DNA of 33,546 nucleotides from Candidatus Kaiserbacteria bacterium. GTDB taxonomy: Bacteria; Patescibacteriota; Minisyncoccia; Phycocordibacterales; Phycocordibacteraceae. The stretch spans positions 1 through 33,546 of the forward strand of contig DRNP01000004.1 of NCBI GenBank assembly GCA_011322135.1, given 5' to 3'. A program made the position numbers and the translations under genes. Below the pieces are notes generated by a model that had not been told where the DNA came from, ran no database searches, and saw nothing but the letters and a program-made list of their open reading frames with translations. Each line of letters begins with the position of its first letter. Within the stretch, counting starts at the first letter, position 1. This document shows, piece after piece, positions 21,445-29,629 of this stretch.

Positions 21445-22170
21445 TTAGACGAACATCACAGTAACCATTGCGATACAATATACCACTGAAAAAATTCTGA
21501 AACTGAGAACCTTTTCTTCAGTAACAGCATCAGTAGTAGCAATGTCGATGATGACGGTAACTTCGCATACCGAGATGAAGGCAACAGCGGCACTGACGAC
21601 AATGGCAGCAGCAACAGCGGCACTGACGACAATGGCAGCAGCAAAAAGAGTGATAATAGGTACAATAATAGCAATGATTGCAACTACTTCCGTAGCGAAT
21701 TTTTTATCATTAAAGCCATATCGCCACACTCTATAGTTAGAATAGATCATCGCAACCAACCCCACCAAAGCAAAAGCCACGTACCAAGCGAATTTTGGTT
21801 CGCTTTTTTTAGTAGTGTCTTTATTGAGATAAACAAAACATCCTTGCCCACCTTTTTCAGGATCAAAAACAACAACCTTTTGTTGTTTTTTAATAATTCT
21901 GTAGTGAAAGAAATCCCAAAAAGATTTCAATGGGTGCCTTTCATTTTCAACAATAAACATCTTCCCGAAAGGAATTTCCTCTCCAGGGTTTTTCATTGCC
22001 TCTCGCTCTTCTGCCGTTAGAGGTTTCAAGACCTCCGGTCTCTCCACCTGTTTCAACAATCCCTGTCCATTTTTCATCCACTCTGTGCCAGCATTACAAA
22101 TGCTGACAATAGCAAAATATGAAAACAAACAAGTCGCCAATAACGTTAAAAACAATACTGACCTTTTCAT
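21445..22170 (-). CDS. Hypothetical membrane protein with signal peptide and Ala/Val-rich tandem repeat
   Basis: MKRSVLFLTLLATCLFSYFAIVSICNAG...; strong SD; AAAIVVSAAV repeated. Confidence 0.75.
   Translation of the reverse strand: MKRSVLFLTLLATCLFSYFAIVSICNAGTEWMKNGQGLLKQVERPEVLKPLTAEEREAMKNPGEEIPFGKMFIVENERHPLKSFWDFFHYRIIKKQQKVVVFDPEKGGQGCFVYLNKDTTKKSEPKFAWYVAFALVGLVAMIYSNYRVWRYGFNDKKFATEVVAIIAIIVPIITLFAAAIVVSAAVAAAIVVSAAVAFISVCEVTVIIDIATTDAVTEEKVLSFRIFSVVYCIAMVTVMFV
21581..21642. repeat. 30 bp in-frame tandem repeat, about 2 copies
   Basis: aacagcggcactgacgacaatggcagcagc at 21583-21612 and 21613-21642. Confidence 0.9.
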
Positions 22171-22252: not shown

Positions 22253-22297
22253 ATAATTAAAAGTGAGTGAGGTTAAACCTCACTCACTTTTAATTAT
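22253..22297. repeat. GTGAGTGAGGTTAAACCTCACTCAC palindrome
   Basis: ataattaaaagtgagtgaggtt a aacctcactcacttttaattat-type arms, 22 bp. Confidence 0.85.
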
Positions 22298-22394
22298 CGG
22301 ATATGACAATACTGTTGCATCTGCTAATTATGCGCCATTCGTATTGCACACTCATTCCCAAATATTGTGCGACACTGTGCGCTATACTAAAGCG

Positions 22395-23288
22395 ATGAAG
22401 GCAAACGAAGCGAAGCAACAATTTCTTGAATATATCGAAATAGAACGTGGACGTGCTGTAAAAACAGTAGAAAATTATGACCGCTACCTTACACGCTACT
22501 TCGCGCACGCAAACATACACTTCGTAAAAGACATAAACGAAACCAACATACGCGAATTTCGTCTTTGGTTAAACCGCCAACCGGGAACGCACGGAGCAAT
22601 GAAACGCCGTACACAAAATTATTATTTAATAGCACTCCGTGCTTTTCTAAAGTTTTTACGCAAGCGAGGCATCAATAGTATTCCACCGGAAAGTATAGAG
22701 CTTGCGAAAGTTCCCGAGAGGTCTCTCGATATGATAACGTCTGCAGAGCTAAAACGTTTACTAAACTCGGCAAACGGACCGGACGAAAAATCTCTCCGTG
22801 ACAGAGCGATATTTGAGCTTTTGTTTTCAACGGGGTTGCGTGTTTCTGAACTTTGCTCGCTAAATAATGACATAGACCTTTCTCTTGACGAATTTTCAAT
22901 ACGTGGGAAAGGAGACAAAGTGCGTGTTGTTTTTCTTTCTGAAACGGCGAAGCGTGCCGTTGCACGATATATAAAAGCTCGCAAGGACATGGAGGACGCT
23001 CTTTTTGTGAACGTCTCTAAAGGACATTCCAATTCGTCACGTCTCACACCACGGTCAATCGAGCGCATCATTAAACATTACGCAGTCAAAGCCGGTATAA
23101 CAAAGAAAGTCACCCCACATGTTTTGCGCCACTCTTTTGCCACAGATCTTCTTTCAAATGGGGCTGACATACGCAGTGTTCAAGCTCTTTTAGGGCATGC
23201 AAATATTGCCACAACACAAATCTACACACACGTTACAGATGCGCACCTGCGTGAAGTACACAAAAAATTTCACAGTAACGGGCTATAG
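22395..23288 (+). CDS. xerC: Xer-family tyrosine recombinase
   Basis: MKANEAKQQFLEYIEIERGRAVKTVENY...TGLRVSEL...HVLRHSFATDLLSNGADIRSVQALLGHANIATTQIYTHV (R, HxxR, H, Y present). Start trimmed from 22263; TATACT lies 6 nt upstream of ATG 22395. Confidence 0.93.
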   Translation: MKANEAKQQFLEYIEIERGRAVKTVENYDRYLTRYFAHANIHFVKDINETNIREFRLWLNRQPGTHGAMKRRTQNYYLIALRAFLKFLRKRGINSIPPESIELAKVPERSLDMITSAELKRLLNSANGPDEKSLRDRAIFELLFSTGLRVSELCSLNNDIDLSLDEFSIRGKGDKVRVVFLSETAKRAVARYIKARKDMEDALFVNVSKGHSNSSRLTPRSIERIIKHYAVKAGITKKVTPHVLRHSFATDLLSNGADIRSVQALLGHANIATTQIYTHVTDAHLREVHKKFHSNGL

Positions 23289-23317: not shown

Positions 23318-24082
23318 ATGCGTATCGCCTCTTGGAATGTAAACGGTTTGCGTGCTGTAATAAGAAAAAATAACTGGCAACCCTTTTTAAAGAAAATACA
23401 TCCTGACATTTTTTGTCTGCAGGAAACTAAAGCTTCGCCGGAACAGCTCTCCGATGAAGCATTGTCACCAGCCGGTTATTCCGCTTTTTTTGCTTCAAGC
23501 AAAATAAAAAAAGGATACAGTGGTGTTGCATTGTATTCTAAAATCGAACCGTTAAATGTAAGGTACGGATTTGGTATTAAAGAATTTGATATCGAAGGAC
23601 GTACCATTTCAGCTGAATACAATGACTTTTGGCTCATTAATTCTTATTTTCCAAATGGTGGGCAGGGTCCTGCAAGACTGGATTATAAGCTTCGTTTTTA
23701 TGATGCTTTCCTTGATTTTATAGAAAATCTACATGCTAAAAAACCGGTTATATTTTGCGGTGATGTAAATACAGCTCACGAAGAGATTGATCTTTCAAGA
23801 CCGGAAGAAAATGCCAAATCTTCAGGATTCCTTCCGCAAGAGCGTGCGTGGATTGACGAAGTTTTAAACAACGGATACGTGGATACGTTCCGCCATCTAC
23901 ACCCACGCCAATCAAACGCATATTCCTACTGGGACATGCAAACACACGCTCGCGATAGAAACGTTGGGTGGAGGTTGGATTATTTTTTTGTTTCGCAAGA
24001 GCTTTCACCGCGTATAAAGAAATCTGAAATCCACACTGATATATATGGTTCTGATCACTGCCCTGTTTCTGTCACGCTCTAA
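23318..24082 (+). CDS. xth: Exodeoxyribonuclease III / AP endonuclease
   Basis: MRIASWNVNGLRAVIRKNNWQPFLKKIHPDIFCLQETKA...GDVNTAHEEIDLSRP...RNVGWRLDYFFVS...YGSDHCPVSVTL. Confidence 0.95.
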   Translation: MRIASWNVNGLRAVIRKNNWQPFLKKIHPDIFCLQETKASPEQLSDEALSPAGYSAFFASSKIKKGYSGVALYSKIEPLNVRYGFGIKEFDIEGRTISAEYNDFWLINSYFPNGGQGPARLDYKLRFYDAFLDFIENLHAKKPVIFCGDVNTAHEEIDLSRPEENAKSSGFLPQERAWIDEVLNNGYVDTFRHLHPRQSNAYSYWDMQTHARDRNVGWRLDYFFVSQELSPRIKKSEIHTDIYGSDHCPVSVTL

Positions 24083-24109
24083 AGGACAAGTTATCCACAG
24101 GCATGTCCT

Positions 24110-24331
24110 TTACTCTGTCCTATACAGCGGTATTATAAATATCGGAAGGAGTTCTTTGTGAGCACTTTCCGTAAGTAGTTCTTTCCAAGAGAAGAAATGC
24201 AGATGCGGAACAGTTTCAGTCCAACGACGGGGCGAATCCCCCATTATGTACCATAAAGGGTCTGCAATAGTTCCACGTGTAACATATTCTCTTAAAAAAT
24301 ATATAAAAGTCGCCACCTCCAGGCGTGCCAT
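24110..24331 (-). CDS. Hypothetical small protein, 73 aa
   Basis: ORF only; start codon lies in a hairpin arm, so the start is uncertain. Confidence 0.3.
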   Translation of the reverse strand: MARLEVATFIYFLREYVTRGTIADPLWYIMGDSPRRWTETVPHLHFFSWKELLTESAHKELLPIFIIPLYRTE

Positions 24332-26613
24332 CCAAAAAGCCCCAAGCTATTACTAAATATCGGCACGCCAACAGGCGGCTTTTTTATTTACACATTTTAT
24401 TTATATACAACACTTCGCAGCATAAACAGTACCTTTTATACTTATATACACAACTATCGTAACCTAAAGATACTGTTTTGATCTTAATAAAAAATCGTGC
24501 AACAGCGTTATCCATGTTTCACGTGAAAGAACGGTTTATAAAAATCTGAGTTAAAGAAAGAAACGGGTTGCTGTTTTTGTTATAGAACGGCTTTGTTAAC
24601 ACTTGTTTTTAATAAAAGTTACGTATTATAAAAACGGCAAAATGTGGAAAATAGTCTCACGTCCTAGATTCAAGAAATAGTTGCAAGGCCTAAGCAGTAT
24701 GAACCAAAACAAAATGGGTCCTGGACCCATTAACATTAACCATAACTACATACTAGACAATGCTTTTTTATATAATTATGTTTATTCATTCCTTAATGGG
24801 GCTAAAAACAAGAGAAATCCAGTGTATTACTGGGTTTTTTTGATTTTGCCGACAACACTAAATGCTACTTAACTCATTTTGATAAAAAGTCGTGCAACAT
24901 CGTTATTCATGTTCCACGTGAAAGAATTATTTGTAAAAAATCTTAGACTTTATTACACATGTAATATCTTGTAACTCAATAAATTTGATATTTTATATAG
25001 CTTTTACATGACAAAACCAATGTTGCACGTGAAAACTACATCTTTGACACACTCCTCGACAAAAAACCTATTGATACAGCAAATATCCACGACAGTTGTT
25101 CCACGTGAAAGAATTATTTGTTTGTAAAACAGCTTATTTAGATTGTTCCACGTGAAAAGTCTACCGAACGTGGTGCTTTTGCATGATTTTACCAACCTCT
25201 ATTTGCTCAACATCATCTTGTTTTTGCTTTCCCAATTTACCTAAAGCACTTAATTCTTCATCCGATAGGTCTAAAAGCTCTTCTGAACGCTTATCCAAAT
25301 ACTCTTCTGTATTCTTTTTAGGGTCTTCCAGCACTTCTTCTAATAGAGCATGCAAAGTCCACCCGATGCGTGGACCTGGTTCCACGTGGAACTTTTCCAT
25401 TAGATGCCGACCGCCTGTTTTTAGCATAGAGACAGAAATAGGGTCACGTAATGCTTGTTCAACCATTGCTTTGTACTTTCTAAACCGAAAAGGTTGTTCT
25501 TTTGGGCGTCCTGTGCCAACTCTATCGCAAATACGCAAATTAAGCAGATCCCATATATTTTCCTCACCAACGTTACTAATCATTCTCCTAACAGCTGAAA
25601 GGGTGATTTTGTCCGGATCAGAAAAAAACATGTGCCAACGAACGAGTTTTGTTACGCGATTAATGGTTTCACGTGAAAACTTCAGATCTGATAATACTTT
25701 TTTTATGATTCGTGCACTTACAACTTCATGACCATGGAAAGTCCAGTCTTTTTTTTCATCAGACCAACGTCTAGAATCTGTTTTCCCTATATCGTGGAAA
25801 AGGGCAGACAATCGAATATCTAAATCCCATTTTTTATCTGCCGAATGCTGTACCGCACGTAACACGTGTTCAAAAACATCAAAAGAGTGCGCCTGGTTTT
25901 GATCTATACCTACTGCACGCGCAAGATCCGGAATAATATATTCAAGAAGTCCCAGACGTTCTGCAAGAGCCAATCCTATAAGAGGACGGTCAGACATAAT
26001 AATCCGTATAAACTCATCCCGAATACGCTCTTTTGATATATGTTTGAGATTGGATGCTTTTTTCTGAATTGCCGTAGCAGTATTCGTATCAATAGCAAAG
26101 TCGAGTTCAGCAACAAAACGTATCGCTCTCATTAGCCGAAGAGCGTCTTCTTCAAAACGTTCCTCCGGGTCACCGACAGTTGCAATAACTTTTTCTAGGA
26201 CAGCATCTTGTCCTTTATACGGGTCTACTATTTGTCCTTTAGAATCTTCAAATGCAATGGCGTTTATAGTGAAGTCGCGCCTGGCAAGATCTTCTTCTAA
26301 AGAATCTCCAAAAGTTACAGAATCTGGGCGACGTTTATCCCCGTAGCTTGATTCTGTGCGATATGGTGTAACTTCTACAATTTTTAACGTGTCATCATCT
26401 GTTTCATTTACAATACCGACGGTGCCGAAATCATTTGTATAAAAGGTTTCCGAAAACAATGATTGTATGTCGTCAGGTTTTGCATTCGTGGTGATATCCC
26501 AATCTTTTGGTTTCCTTTTTAGTAATAAATCTCGAACGCAACCACCGACAAGATATACTTCAAAACCGGCTTCACGTATCTTTTTTGTTATTAAAGATAT
26601 TTCACGTGGAACA
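24269..26613. promoter_or_regulatory. Cluster of nine parS-like (ParB-binding centromere) sites
   Basis: AGTTCCACGTGTAACA 24269; TGTTTCACGTGAAAGA 24515; TGTTCCACGTGAAAGA 24910; TGTTGCACGTGAAAAC 25021; TGTTCCACGTGAAAGA 25097; TGTTCCACGTGAAAAG 25144; GGTTCCACGTGGAACT 25378; GGTTTCACGTGAAAAC 25665; TATTTCACGTGGAACA 26598. Confidence 0.85.
24312..24385 (+). terminator. Interrupted stem-loop with U-tract downstream of xth
   Basis: gccacct ... ggcgtgcc (24322-24329) pairs ggcacgcc (24362-24369) ... aggcggc then tttttt. Confidence 0.5.
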
Positions 26614-26624
26614 TTATGCATCAT
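25161..26624 (-). CDS. cca: CCA tRNA nucleotidyltransferase with HD domain
   Basis: [37 protein letters not shown]...[11 protein letters not shown]...[15 protein letters not shown]...[14 protein letters not shown]. Confidence 0.95.
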   Translation of the reverse strand: [487 protein letters not shown]

Positions 26625-26973: not shown

Positions 26974-27975
26974 TTATTCATTTTTCTTCTTTAATAACTC
27001 TGGGTACTCAATCGCCATCTGGGTAAATTTATCCATTTCGTAAATCTCATTTATCTCTATTCGGTGAATAATATCTTTAAATTTATTTTTCATTTCTCGT
27101 ATAAGATCACGCAATTCTTTTCTACTTTCAATCTCAATATCTAAGAGAAGTTCCCAAGTTCCCATTCCTTTTACATAATTTATTATATTTGGATGTGAAG
27201 AGCAAAAATTATATAAATCATCGATCTTTTTTTTATCAAAATGAATTATTTTAAAACAAACACGATAAAGGAGTAACCCCAGTTTTTGATAATCAATGGT
27301 GAAAGTAATTTTGGTAATTACTTTGTCTCTTTCTAGTCGATTAAAATGTTTATGCACCAAACCCACCGAAACATCTAGAATTTCTGCTATTTTTGTAAAT
27401 TCCATTCGCCCATCAACAAGAAGTATAGAGATTATTTTTCTATCAATTTCTGAGAGTTTAGTTTTTTTTGTTGTTCCTCCTGATATAGCCGAGTTTTGGA
27501 ATTTGTTTTCTTTATTAATTAGATAGGAACGTGGAAATTTAGTAAAACCTAATCCAACAAAAATATCAGACATGGTGATATATTTACCGTATTTTGAAAA
27601 GATTTCTTGCAAGATTTCATTATGATGGAAAATATCACGGCTAATAATACCAATTAAAACATCGGCATAACCATCAGCTCGTTGAACTATTGGAATGTAT
27701 TTATGCTTATTGAAATATTTGTACATTTCATCTTCTTTTTCTTTTGTTAGTCCTGCAAATTTTAACCAATAACCCCAAAAGAAAGAATAATCCATTTTGT
27801 CGTAGTCTGTGAAAGCCCAAAAGTGCTTAATAATTCCTTTCTCGATTAATTGTTCGAAATGATATTTAACTACTTGTGGGGAAGTTTTTACAGAACGAGC
27901 TATTTTGGAATAACTAGCCCTCCCGTCTTTATCAAGTTCAAACAGTATTTTTTTATCTAATTCTGTTATGTTCAT
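26974..27975 (-). CDS. Double Lrp/AsnC-type transcriptional regulator (two HTH domains)
   Basis: MNITELDKKILFELDKDGRASYSKIARSVKTSPQVVKYHFEQLIEKGIIK... and LSEIDRKIISILLVDGRMEFTKIAEILDVSVGLVHKHFNRLERDKVI. Confidence 0.85.
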   Translation of the reverse strand: MNITELDKKILFELDKDGRASYSKIARSVKTSPQVVKYHFEQLIEKGIIKHFWAFTDYDKMDYSFFWGYWLKFAGLTKEKEDEMYKYFNKHKYIPIVQRADGYADVLIGIISRDIFHHNEILQEIFSKYGKYITMSDIFVGLGFTKFPRSYLINKENKFQNSAISGGTTKKTKLSEIDRKIISILLVDGRMEFTKIAEILDVSVGLVHKHFNRLERDKVITKITFTIDYQKLGLLLYRVCFKIIHFDKKKIDDLYNFCSSHPNIINYVKGMGTWELLLDIEIESRKELRDLIREMKNKFKDIIHRIEINEIYEMDKFTQMAIEYPELLKKKNE

Positions 27976-28128: not shown

Positions 28129-28572
28129 ATGAAGATTTTGGTAATTGATGACAAACAAGAAGAGCGCGAGGGCGCAATCAGCCAGTTGAGTCAGCACGAG
28201 CTGACCGTTGTAGATGGCTACAGTACTGGGAAAGAAGCGCTCCAATTAAAGGAGTGGGATGTAGTTCTCACCGACATGCTGATGCCGGACTACGAAGGAG
28301 TACTACAACCTTACGGGCTAGTGTTATCCTTAATGGCGCAAGCTAAGGGGATCCCGGTGGCAGTTGTGTCATCAGGAAACCACCATGACCATCGGATGCT
28401 TTTCGCCGCCGAGGAGGTAGGTGGCAAAGTATCAGAAAACTTCTTTGTATTAGCATCAAGGTGGTGTCCAACCACCACAAACAAGAGAAAGGATTGGTCA
28501 AAAGCCTTAGATATCGTGTTAGGGAAGGCTCGACACGATGTCGAAAGACCAGATATAGCTATATCTGGTTAA
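28129..28572 (+). CDS. Stand-alone receiver-like (response regulator-like) protein
   Basis: MKILVIDDKQEEREGAISQLSQHELTVVDGYSTGKEALQLKEWDVVLTDMLMPDYEG...AVVSSGNHHDHRM; SD GGGGAGG; no output domain. Confidence 0.8.
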   Translation: MKILVIDDKQEEREGAISQLSQHELTVVDGYSTGKEALQLKEWDVVLTDMLMPDYEGVLQPYGLVLSLMAQAKGIPVAVVSSGNHHDHRMLFAAEEVGGKVSENFFVLASRWCPTTTNKRKDWSKALDIVLGKARHDVERPDIAISG

Positions 28573-29347: not shown

Positions 29348-29629
29348 ATGCCAAGACCATTTTTAAAAAGAAGAATAAATTCGAACCCAAACGTTGTTTT
29401 TTATAAACCTCGAGGGATTCCTTTGCGAGAATTAAAGACAATTAAAATAACTTTAGAAGAATGGGAGTCTTTACGTTTAAAAGACGTTGAAAACATGAAC
29501 CAGATTGATGCTGCAAGAAGCATGAACACATCACAGAGTACTTTCCAAAGGATTTTAACAAGGGCACATAAAAAAATTAGCTTTGCTTTGGTACATTGTA
29601 TGGCGATACAAATTACTATAGATGAATAG
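29348..29629 (+). CDS. DUF134 (UPF0251) family predicted DNA-binding protein
   Basis: MPRPFLKRRINSNPNVVFYKPRGIPLRELKTIKITLEEWESLRLKDVENMNQIDAARSMNTSQSTFQRILTRAHKKISFALVHCMAIQI. Confidence 0.85.
   Translation: MPRPFLKRRINSNPNVVFYKPRGIPLRELKTIKITLEEWESLRLKDVENMNQIDAARSMNTSQSTFQRILTRAHKKISFALVHCMAIQITIDE

Follow-up and report, generated by a model that had tools for sequence, protein, structure and literature searches.

A probable ParA-less parS centromere in and beside cca, in the origin region of a Candidatus Kaiserbacteria genome

We propose that nine parS-like sites packed in and beside cca, the gene for the CCA-adding tRNA nucleotidyltransferase, are very probably a centromere at the chromosomal origin of a Candidatus Kaiserbacteria bacterium, and that this centromere works without ParA. 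Its likely output would be origin marking and the recruitment of SMC-ScpA by a ParB predicted to bind the sites. The stretch of DNA analyzed here (33,546 nucleotides, hereafter the window) lies on contig C4 of a draft genome of 656,807 bp in 46 contigs, 95% complete. A preliminary description of the window had already read the cluster as an origin-proximal chromosomal centromere. Our analysis supports this reading: The cluster is unique in the genome, a ParB is encoded, and the sites are conserved at cca. Our literature search found no work joining parS with Patescibacteria or CPR bacteria.

The nine sites lie between 24269 and 26613 of the window (Table 1). Scored against TGTTYCACGTGRAACA, four of them carry 1 mismatch (24515, 24910, 25097, and 26598), three carry 2, and the other two carry 3. 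After dinucleotide shuffling, the window contained 0.68 sites on average, and nine were reached in 0 of 100 shuffles. All nine sites of the preliminary description were recovered at their coordinates, five of them in a gene-free AT-rich stretch and three in cca, as it had placed them. It had counted three sites matching at 15 of 16 positions; those three do have a single mismatch, but four sites do under TGTTYCACGTGRAACA, the difference being that the preliminary count took A, and TGTTYCACGTGRAACA R, at position 11. The GC content is about 0.30 in the 400 bp beyond cca versus 0.40 for the window. A 79-bp imperfect direct repeat (24466-24544 and 24861-24939, 78% identical) carries sites 2 and 3, which suggests a local duplication of sites.

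Table 1. Sites and neighboring features of the cca region, in window coordinates.
Feature	Position	Strand	Sequence	Remarks
XerC/XerD-family tyrosine recombinase	22263..23288	+		conserved near neighbor
xth, exonuclease III-like	23318..24082	+		convergent with cca; conserved neighbor of the cluster
DnaA box	24091..24099	+	TTATCCACA	just past the xth stop codon
parS-like site 1	24269..24284		AGTTCCACGTGTAACA	2 mismatches; between xth and the AT-rich stretch
Intergenic AT-rich segment	24386..25160			five sites; candidate centromere and origin-proximal segment
parS-like site 2	24515..24530		TGTTTCACGTGAAAGA	1 mismatch; in the 79-bp repeat with site 3
parS-like site 3	24910..24925		TGTTCCACGTGAAAGA	1 mismatch; partner of site 2 in the 79-bp repeat
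parS-like site 4	25021..25036		TGTTGCACGTGAAAAC	3 mismatches
parS-like site 5	25097..25112		TGTTCCACGTGAAAGA	1 mismatch
parS-like site 6	25144..25159		TGTTCCACGTGAAAAG	2 mismatches; directly past the cca stop codon
cca, CCA-adding tRNA nucleotidyltransferase	25161..26624	-		487 aa; carries three sites
parS-like site 7	25378..25393			in cca, nt offset 1231; Phe-His-Val as TTC CAC GTG
parS-like site 8	25665..25680			in cca, offset 944; Phe-Ser-Arg-Glu as TTT TCA CGT GAA
parS-like site 9	26598..26613			1 mismatch; in the 5' end of cca, offset 11; Val-Pro-Arg-Glu

Across the draft genome, every site with at most 1 mismatch is inside the cluster. When 2 mismatches are allowed, 9 sites are found, 7 of them in the cluster, while a reversed-pattern control gives 1; the two sites elsewhere have a broken CACGTG core. 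Sites with 3 mismatches outside the cluster are near the control level (23 in all versus 14). This genome-wide scan, which had been set beforehand as a possible refutation, revealed no comparable cluster elsewhere in the draft genome.

The cluster is also conserved in relatives. We compared 80 loci with a cca relative from Kaiserbacteria/Paceibacteria, each with up to 10 kb of flank per side. The cca interval, which we let reach from 2 kb before the gene to 1.5 kb past it (0.37 Mb in total over the 80 loci), contained 181 sites of 2 or fewer mismatches, spread over 71 of the loci, whereas the flanks of the 80 loci outside this interval (0.94 Mb) contained 0; the reversed pattern gave 1 within the interval and 2 outside. 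Loci of the group to which the window belongs have their sites within cca and just past its 3' end, and most relatives have a site no more than about 60 bp from the cca end, where site 6 is found. The sites are mainly upstream of cca in several more distant loci (L082, L085, L086, and L091) as well as in other families of the order (G023, G033, G034, and G036), and several of these families have none within it. Seven of the genomes searched had no site with at most 2 mismatches; six of these also gave no cca match, and the locus is therefore probably absent from their assemblies. Among 81 loci, cca has xth as a neighbor in 75 and the Xer recombinase in 69. Four other genes of the window occur in 0 of the 80 related loci, which suggests that they were inserted recently around the conserved block of cca, xth, and Xer: those for an AsnC-like regulator, a response-regulator-like protein, and a DUF134-like protein (26974-27975, 28129-28572, and 29348-29629; named by eye) and for an orphan protein without a Pfam match (21445-22170).

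Inside cca, the parS sites are under codon-level constraint and are held through codon choice. Four offsets in the gene (584, 905, 944, and 1231) each carry a site in 45 to 59 of 81 cca genes. The cca of the window has its sites at 11, 944, and 1231; offset 1231 is occupied in 59 of the 81 genes and offset 944 in 45, and offset 11 is common to the closest relatives only (3 genes). In total, 207 sites were observed within cca genes versus 19.6 after synonymous codons were permuted within each gene; the 14 genes without any site are nearly all from more distant relatives. At site positions whose amino acids are compatible with CACGTG, this hexamer is present in 117/165 and 34/42 cases; the corresponding fractions at other positions of these genes are 7/49 and 2/43. 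Serine is encoded by TCA at 140 of 156 site codons versus 244 of 1346 elsewhere. For an identical residue, codon identity is 0.74 at sites versus 0.41 elsewhere. All of these codon counts come from kindred sequences and are hence not independent. Inheritance alone is insufficient to explain the pattern, since synonymous positions elsewhere in these genes have diverged.

The preliminary description had further proposed that the window is near oriC, and data from relatives support this by GC skew, DnaA boxes, and the distance to dnaA. In a complete relative (G023, 981,549 bp), the GC skew of sampled stretches is negative before and positive after a point between about 62 and 120 kb, it switches back between 482 and 520 kb, and the minimum of the cumulative skew is at 82-84 kb (2-kb steps, 30 to 132 kb). 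A perfect parS is found there at 84,021, and three DnaA boxes (83,868, 83,888, and 83,999) lie no more than 160 bp away. In G019, where some stretches are N and give no skew value, the sign changes near 102 kb and cca is at 110 kb. For G036, about 30-45 kb separate the sign change from parS. A skew sign change thus occurs at the cluster or within about 45 kb of it in these three relatives. Where one contig of a relative holds both genes, dnaA is mostly 29-50 kb from cca. In the window's group, the DnaA box TTATCCACA occurs at about 0.48 per 500 bp just beyond cca versus 0-0.08 in other bins, and an equivalent box where xth ends is a common feature of relatives. One-mismatch DnaA boxes are no more frequent over the full window than expected by chance, and the local GC skew in the window is weak. 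Taken together, a place for the cluster in the origin region is supported; for the source genome this rests on relatives, and the exact oriC would be a prediction. The source draft assembly lacks dnaA, though 34 of the 38 genomes searched carry it; because of this, a true loss of the gene was rejected, and its absence from the draft is probably an assembly gap.

The genome encodes one ParB, a protein of 435 aa on contig C36 with the domains ParB_N, HTH_ParB, and ParB_C, whose residues 12-217 align with solved ParB/Spo0J structures. Jalal and colleagues showed that R173 and G201 (Caulobacter numbering) mark parS specificity (PMC7383237). The equivalent residues are Arg and Gly in the source ParB and in 18 of 18 parsable relatives (11 other loci had no parsable motif), so that the search for a ParB homologue, also set beforehand, returned a protein with the expected residue at both parS-contact positions. 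The top NCBIfam score of this ParB, which is below the model's cut-off, is to a Noc model; judged by the contact residues, the specificity is predicted to be of the parS rather than the Noc type. ParB is present in 30 of 30 good-quality genomes. As the preliminary description had stated, the window itself has neither parA nor parB. In the complete relative G023, no parAB operon is near the origin: parB is at 712 kb and parS at 84 kb, about 353 kb apart the short way round. The source parB (L016) adjoins the end of a TGS/RelA-like gene and a peroxiredoxin-like gene, both identified by eye.

The possible partners of ParB are widely encoded. An SMC_N match was found in 30 of 30 good-quality genomes and ScpA in 29 of 30. 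SMC is 723-766 aa long in the eight relatives read (L196-L203); in the source genome it is fragmentary, with 242 and 491 aa encoded at contig ends (L194/L195; the end of C13, and C33). SMC of B. subtilis is about 1186 aa. In the one relative's SMC scanned with Pfam, both head halves were found and no hinge was recognized, and its best NCBIfam model was TIGR02168, at 533 bits versus a cut-off of 567. A canonical SMC with a hinge and arms of about 340 aa was therefore not seen in this set of eight lengths and one hinge scan. Buermann and colleagues reported that the arm of wild-type B. subtilis SMC has 344 residues and that an unrelated dimerization domain is able to replace the SMC hinge (PMC5344682).

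The most serious rival to a centromere without ParA is a complete ParABS system, in which ParA has diverged or falls in an assembly gap and was missed, and segregation is ParA-driven as in Caulobacter. The draft state of the source genome would allow this, and two genomes of the same genus have strong AAA_31 matches (342-359 aa). However, the AAA_31 profile found no match in the source draft genome and none whatever in 34 of 38 genomes, the complete G023 among them; 2 of the 38 exceeded the ParA-family cut-off, while 14 of 14 control genomes were positive. Matches to the CbiA profile were for the most part weak and lay in frames of about 550 aa. We rejected these as ParA; by their length, which is that of CTP synthase, the frames would encode this enzyme. 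No ParA neighbor of parB was seen within the 3.3-kb locus read, either. The absence of ParA is thus stated for two profiles, AAA_31 and CbiA, over mostly draft genomes, and on these data we regard a complete ParABS as improbable.

Alternatively, the CACGTG palindromes could be transcription-factor operators or stem-loops that regulate cca and xth. Sites do lie in and beside cca, and one of them scores as a terminator-like stem, but they are inside and downstream of the gene with none at promoters. In addition, the cluster of other families of the order is on the opposite side of cca, several having none inside it, and the motif is the parS consensus, for which a matching ParB is encoded. Regulatory sites and terminators were therefore rejected on site placement, and we consider this explanation very unlikely. 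A chance or compositional build-up of CACGTG, for which several further copies in the window might speak, has a negligible probability: Those copies lack the parS arms, and the shuffles of the window, the counts across relatives (181 versus 0), and the codon constraint in cca all stand against it. Chance accumulation was rejected on the shuffles and the relatives, and it is already refuted by the comparative data.

For the ParA-less centromere that we favor, we suggest a plausible mechanism. The single ParB, encoded elsewhere, would bind the sites of the cluster via its HTH domain, form a closed, CTP-dependent clamp, and spread across the cca-xth interval. Since no ParA was detected, the output is most likely not ParA-driven pulling; judging from known ParB-SMC systems, it would be origin marking and SMC-ScpA recruitment instead. 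Segregation could then be performed by SMC-driven folding and separation of the new origins. A more far-reaching version is possible, but we find it doubtful: a minimal segregation shared by the whole lineage, in which a ParA-less ParB-parS on cca-embedded sites would load a short hinge-less SMC, perhaps with a RecN-like apex, and the stripped-down SMC-ScpA would act alone.

This scheme recalls Streptococcus pneumoniae, which has an orphan ParB, four origin-proximal parS, and no parA (PMC7022226). Here, too, ParB and parS near the origin go together with SMC and an undetected ParA. Unlike in S. pneumoniae, up to nine sites crowd within and next to cca, where they show as an imprint at the codon level, and the one SMC scanned has no recognizable hinge. 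With Spo0J-parS of Bacillus subtilis, the system shares the 16-bp motif, the ParB domain layout, the origin proximity, and the encoded SMC and ScpA, but Soj/ParA is undetected, parB is far from the sites in the complete relative, and the SMC of the relatives is shorter. The equivalents of R173 and G201 and the origin-proximal parS cluster are as in Caulobacter ParABS, whereas ParA and a par operon at the origin are what the present system appears to lack. Noc-NBS nucleoid occlusion employs a protein of a homologous family, but here the specificity residues (R, G) are of the ParB type and the sites are parS, at one locus only.

The cluster provides a mapped, testable candidate centromere for this lineage, and it can serve to mark the origin region of draft genomes. 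In the codon choice of cca, selection for parS within a gene has left a clear natural record. If a ParA-less ParB does work with a short, apparently hinge-less SMC in these bacteria, they would be a test of which components the ParB-SMC machinery can do without.
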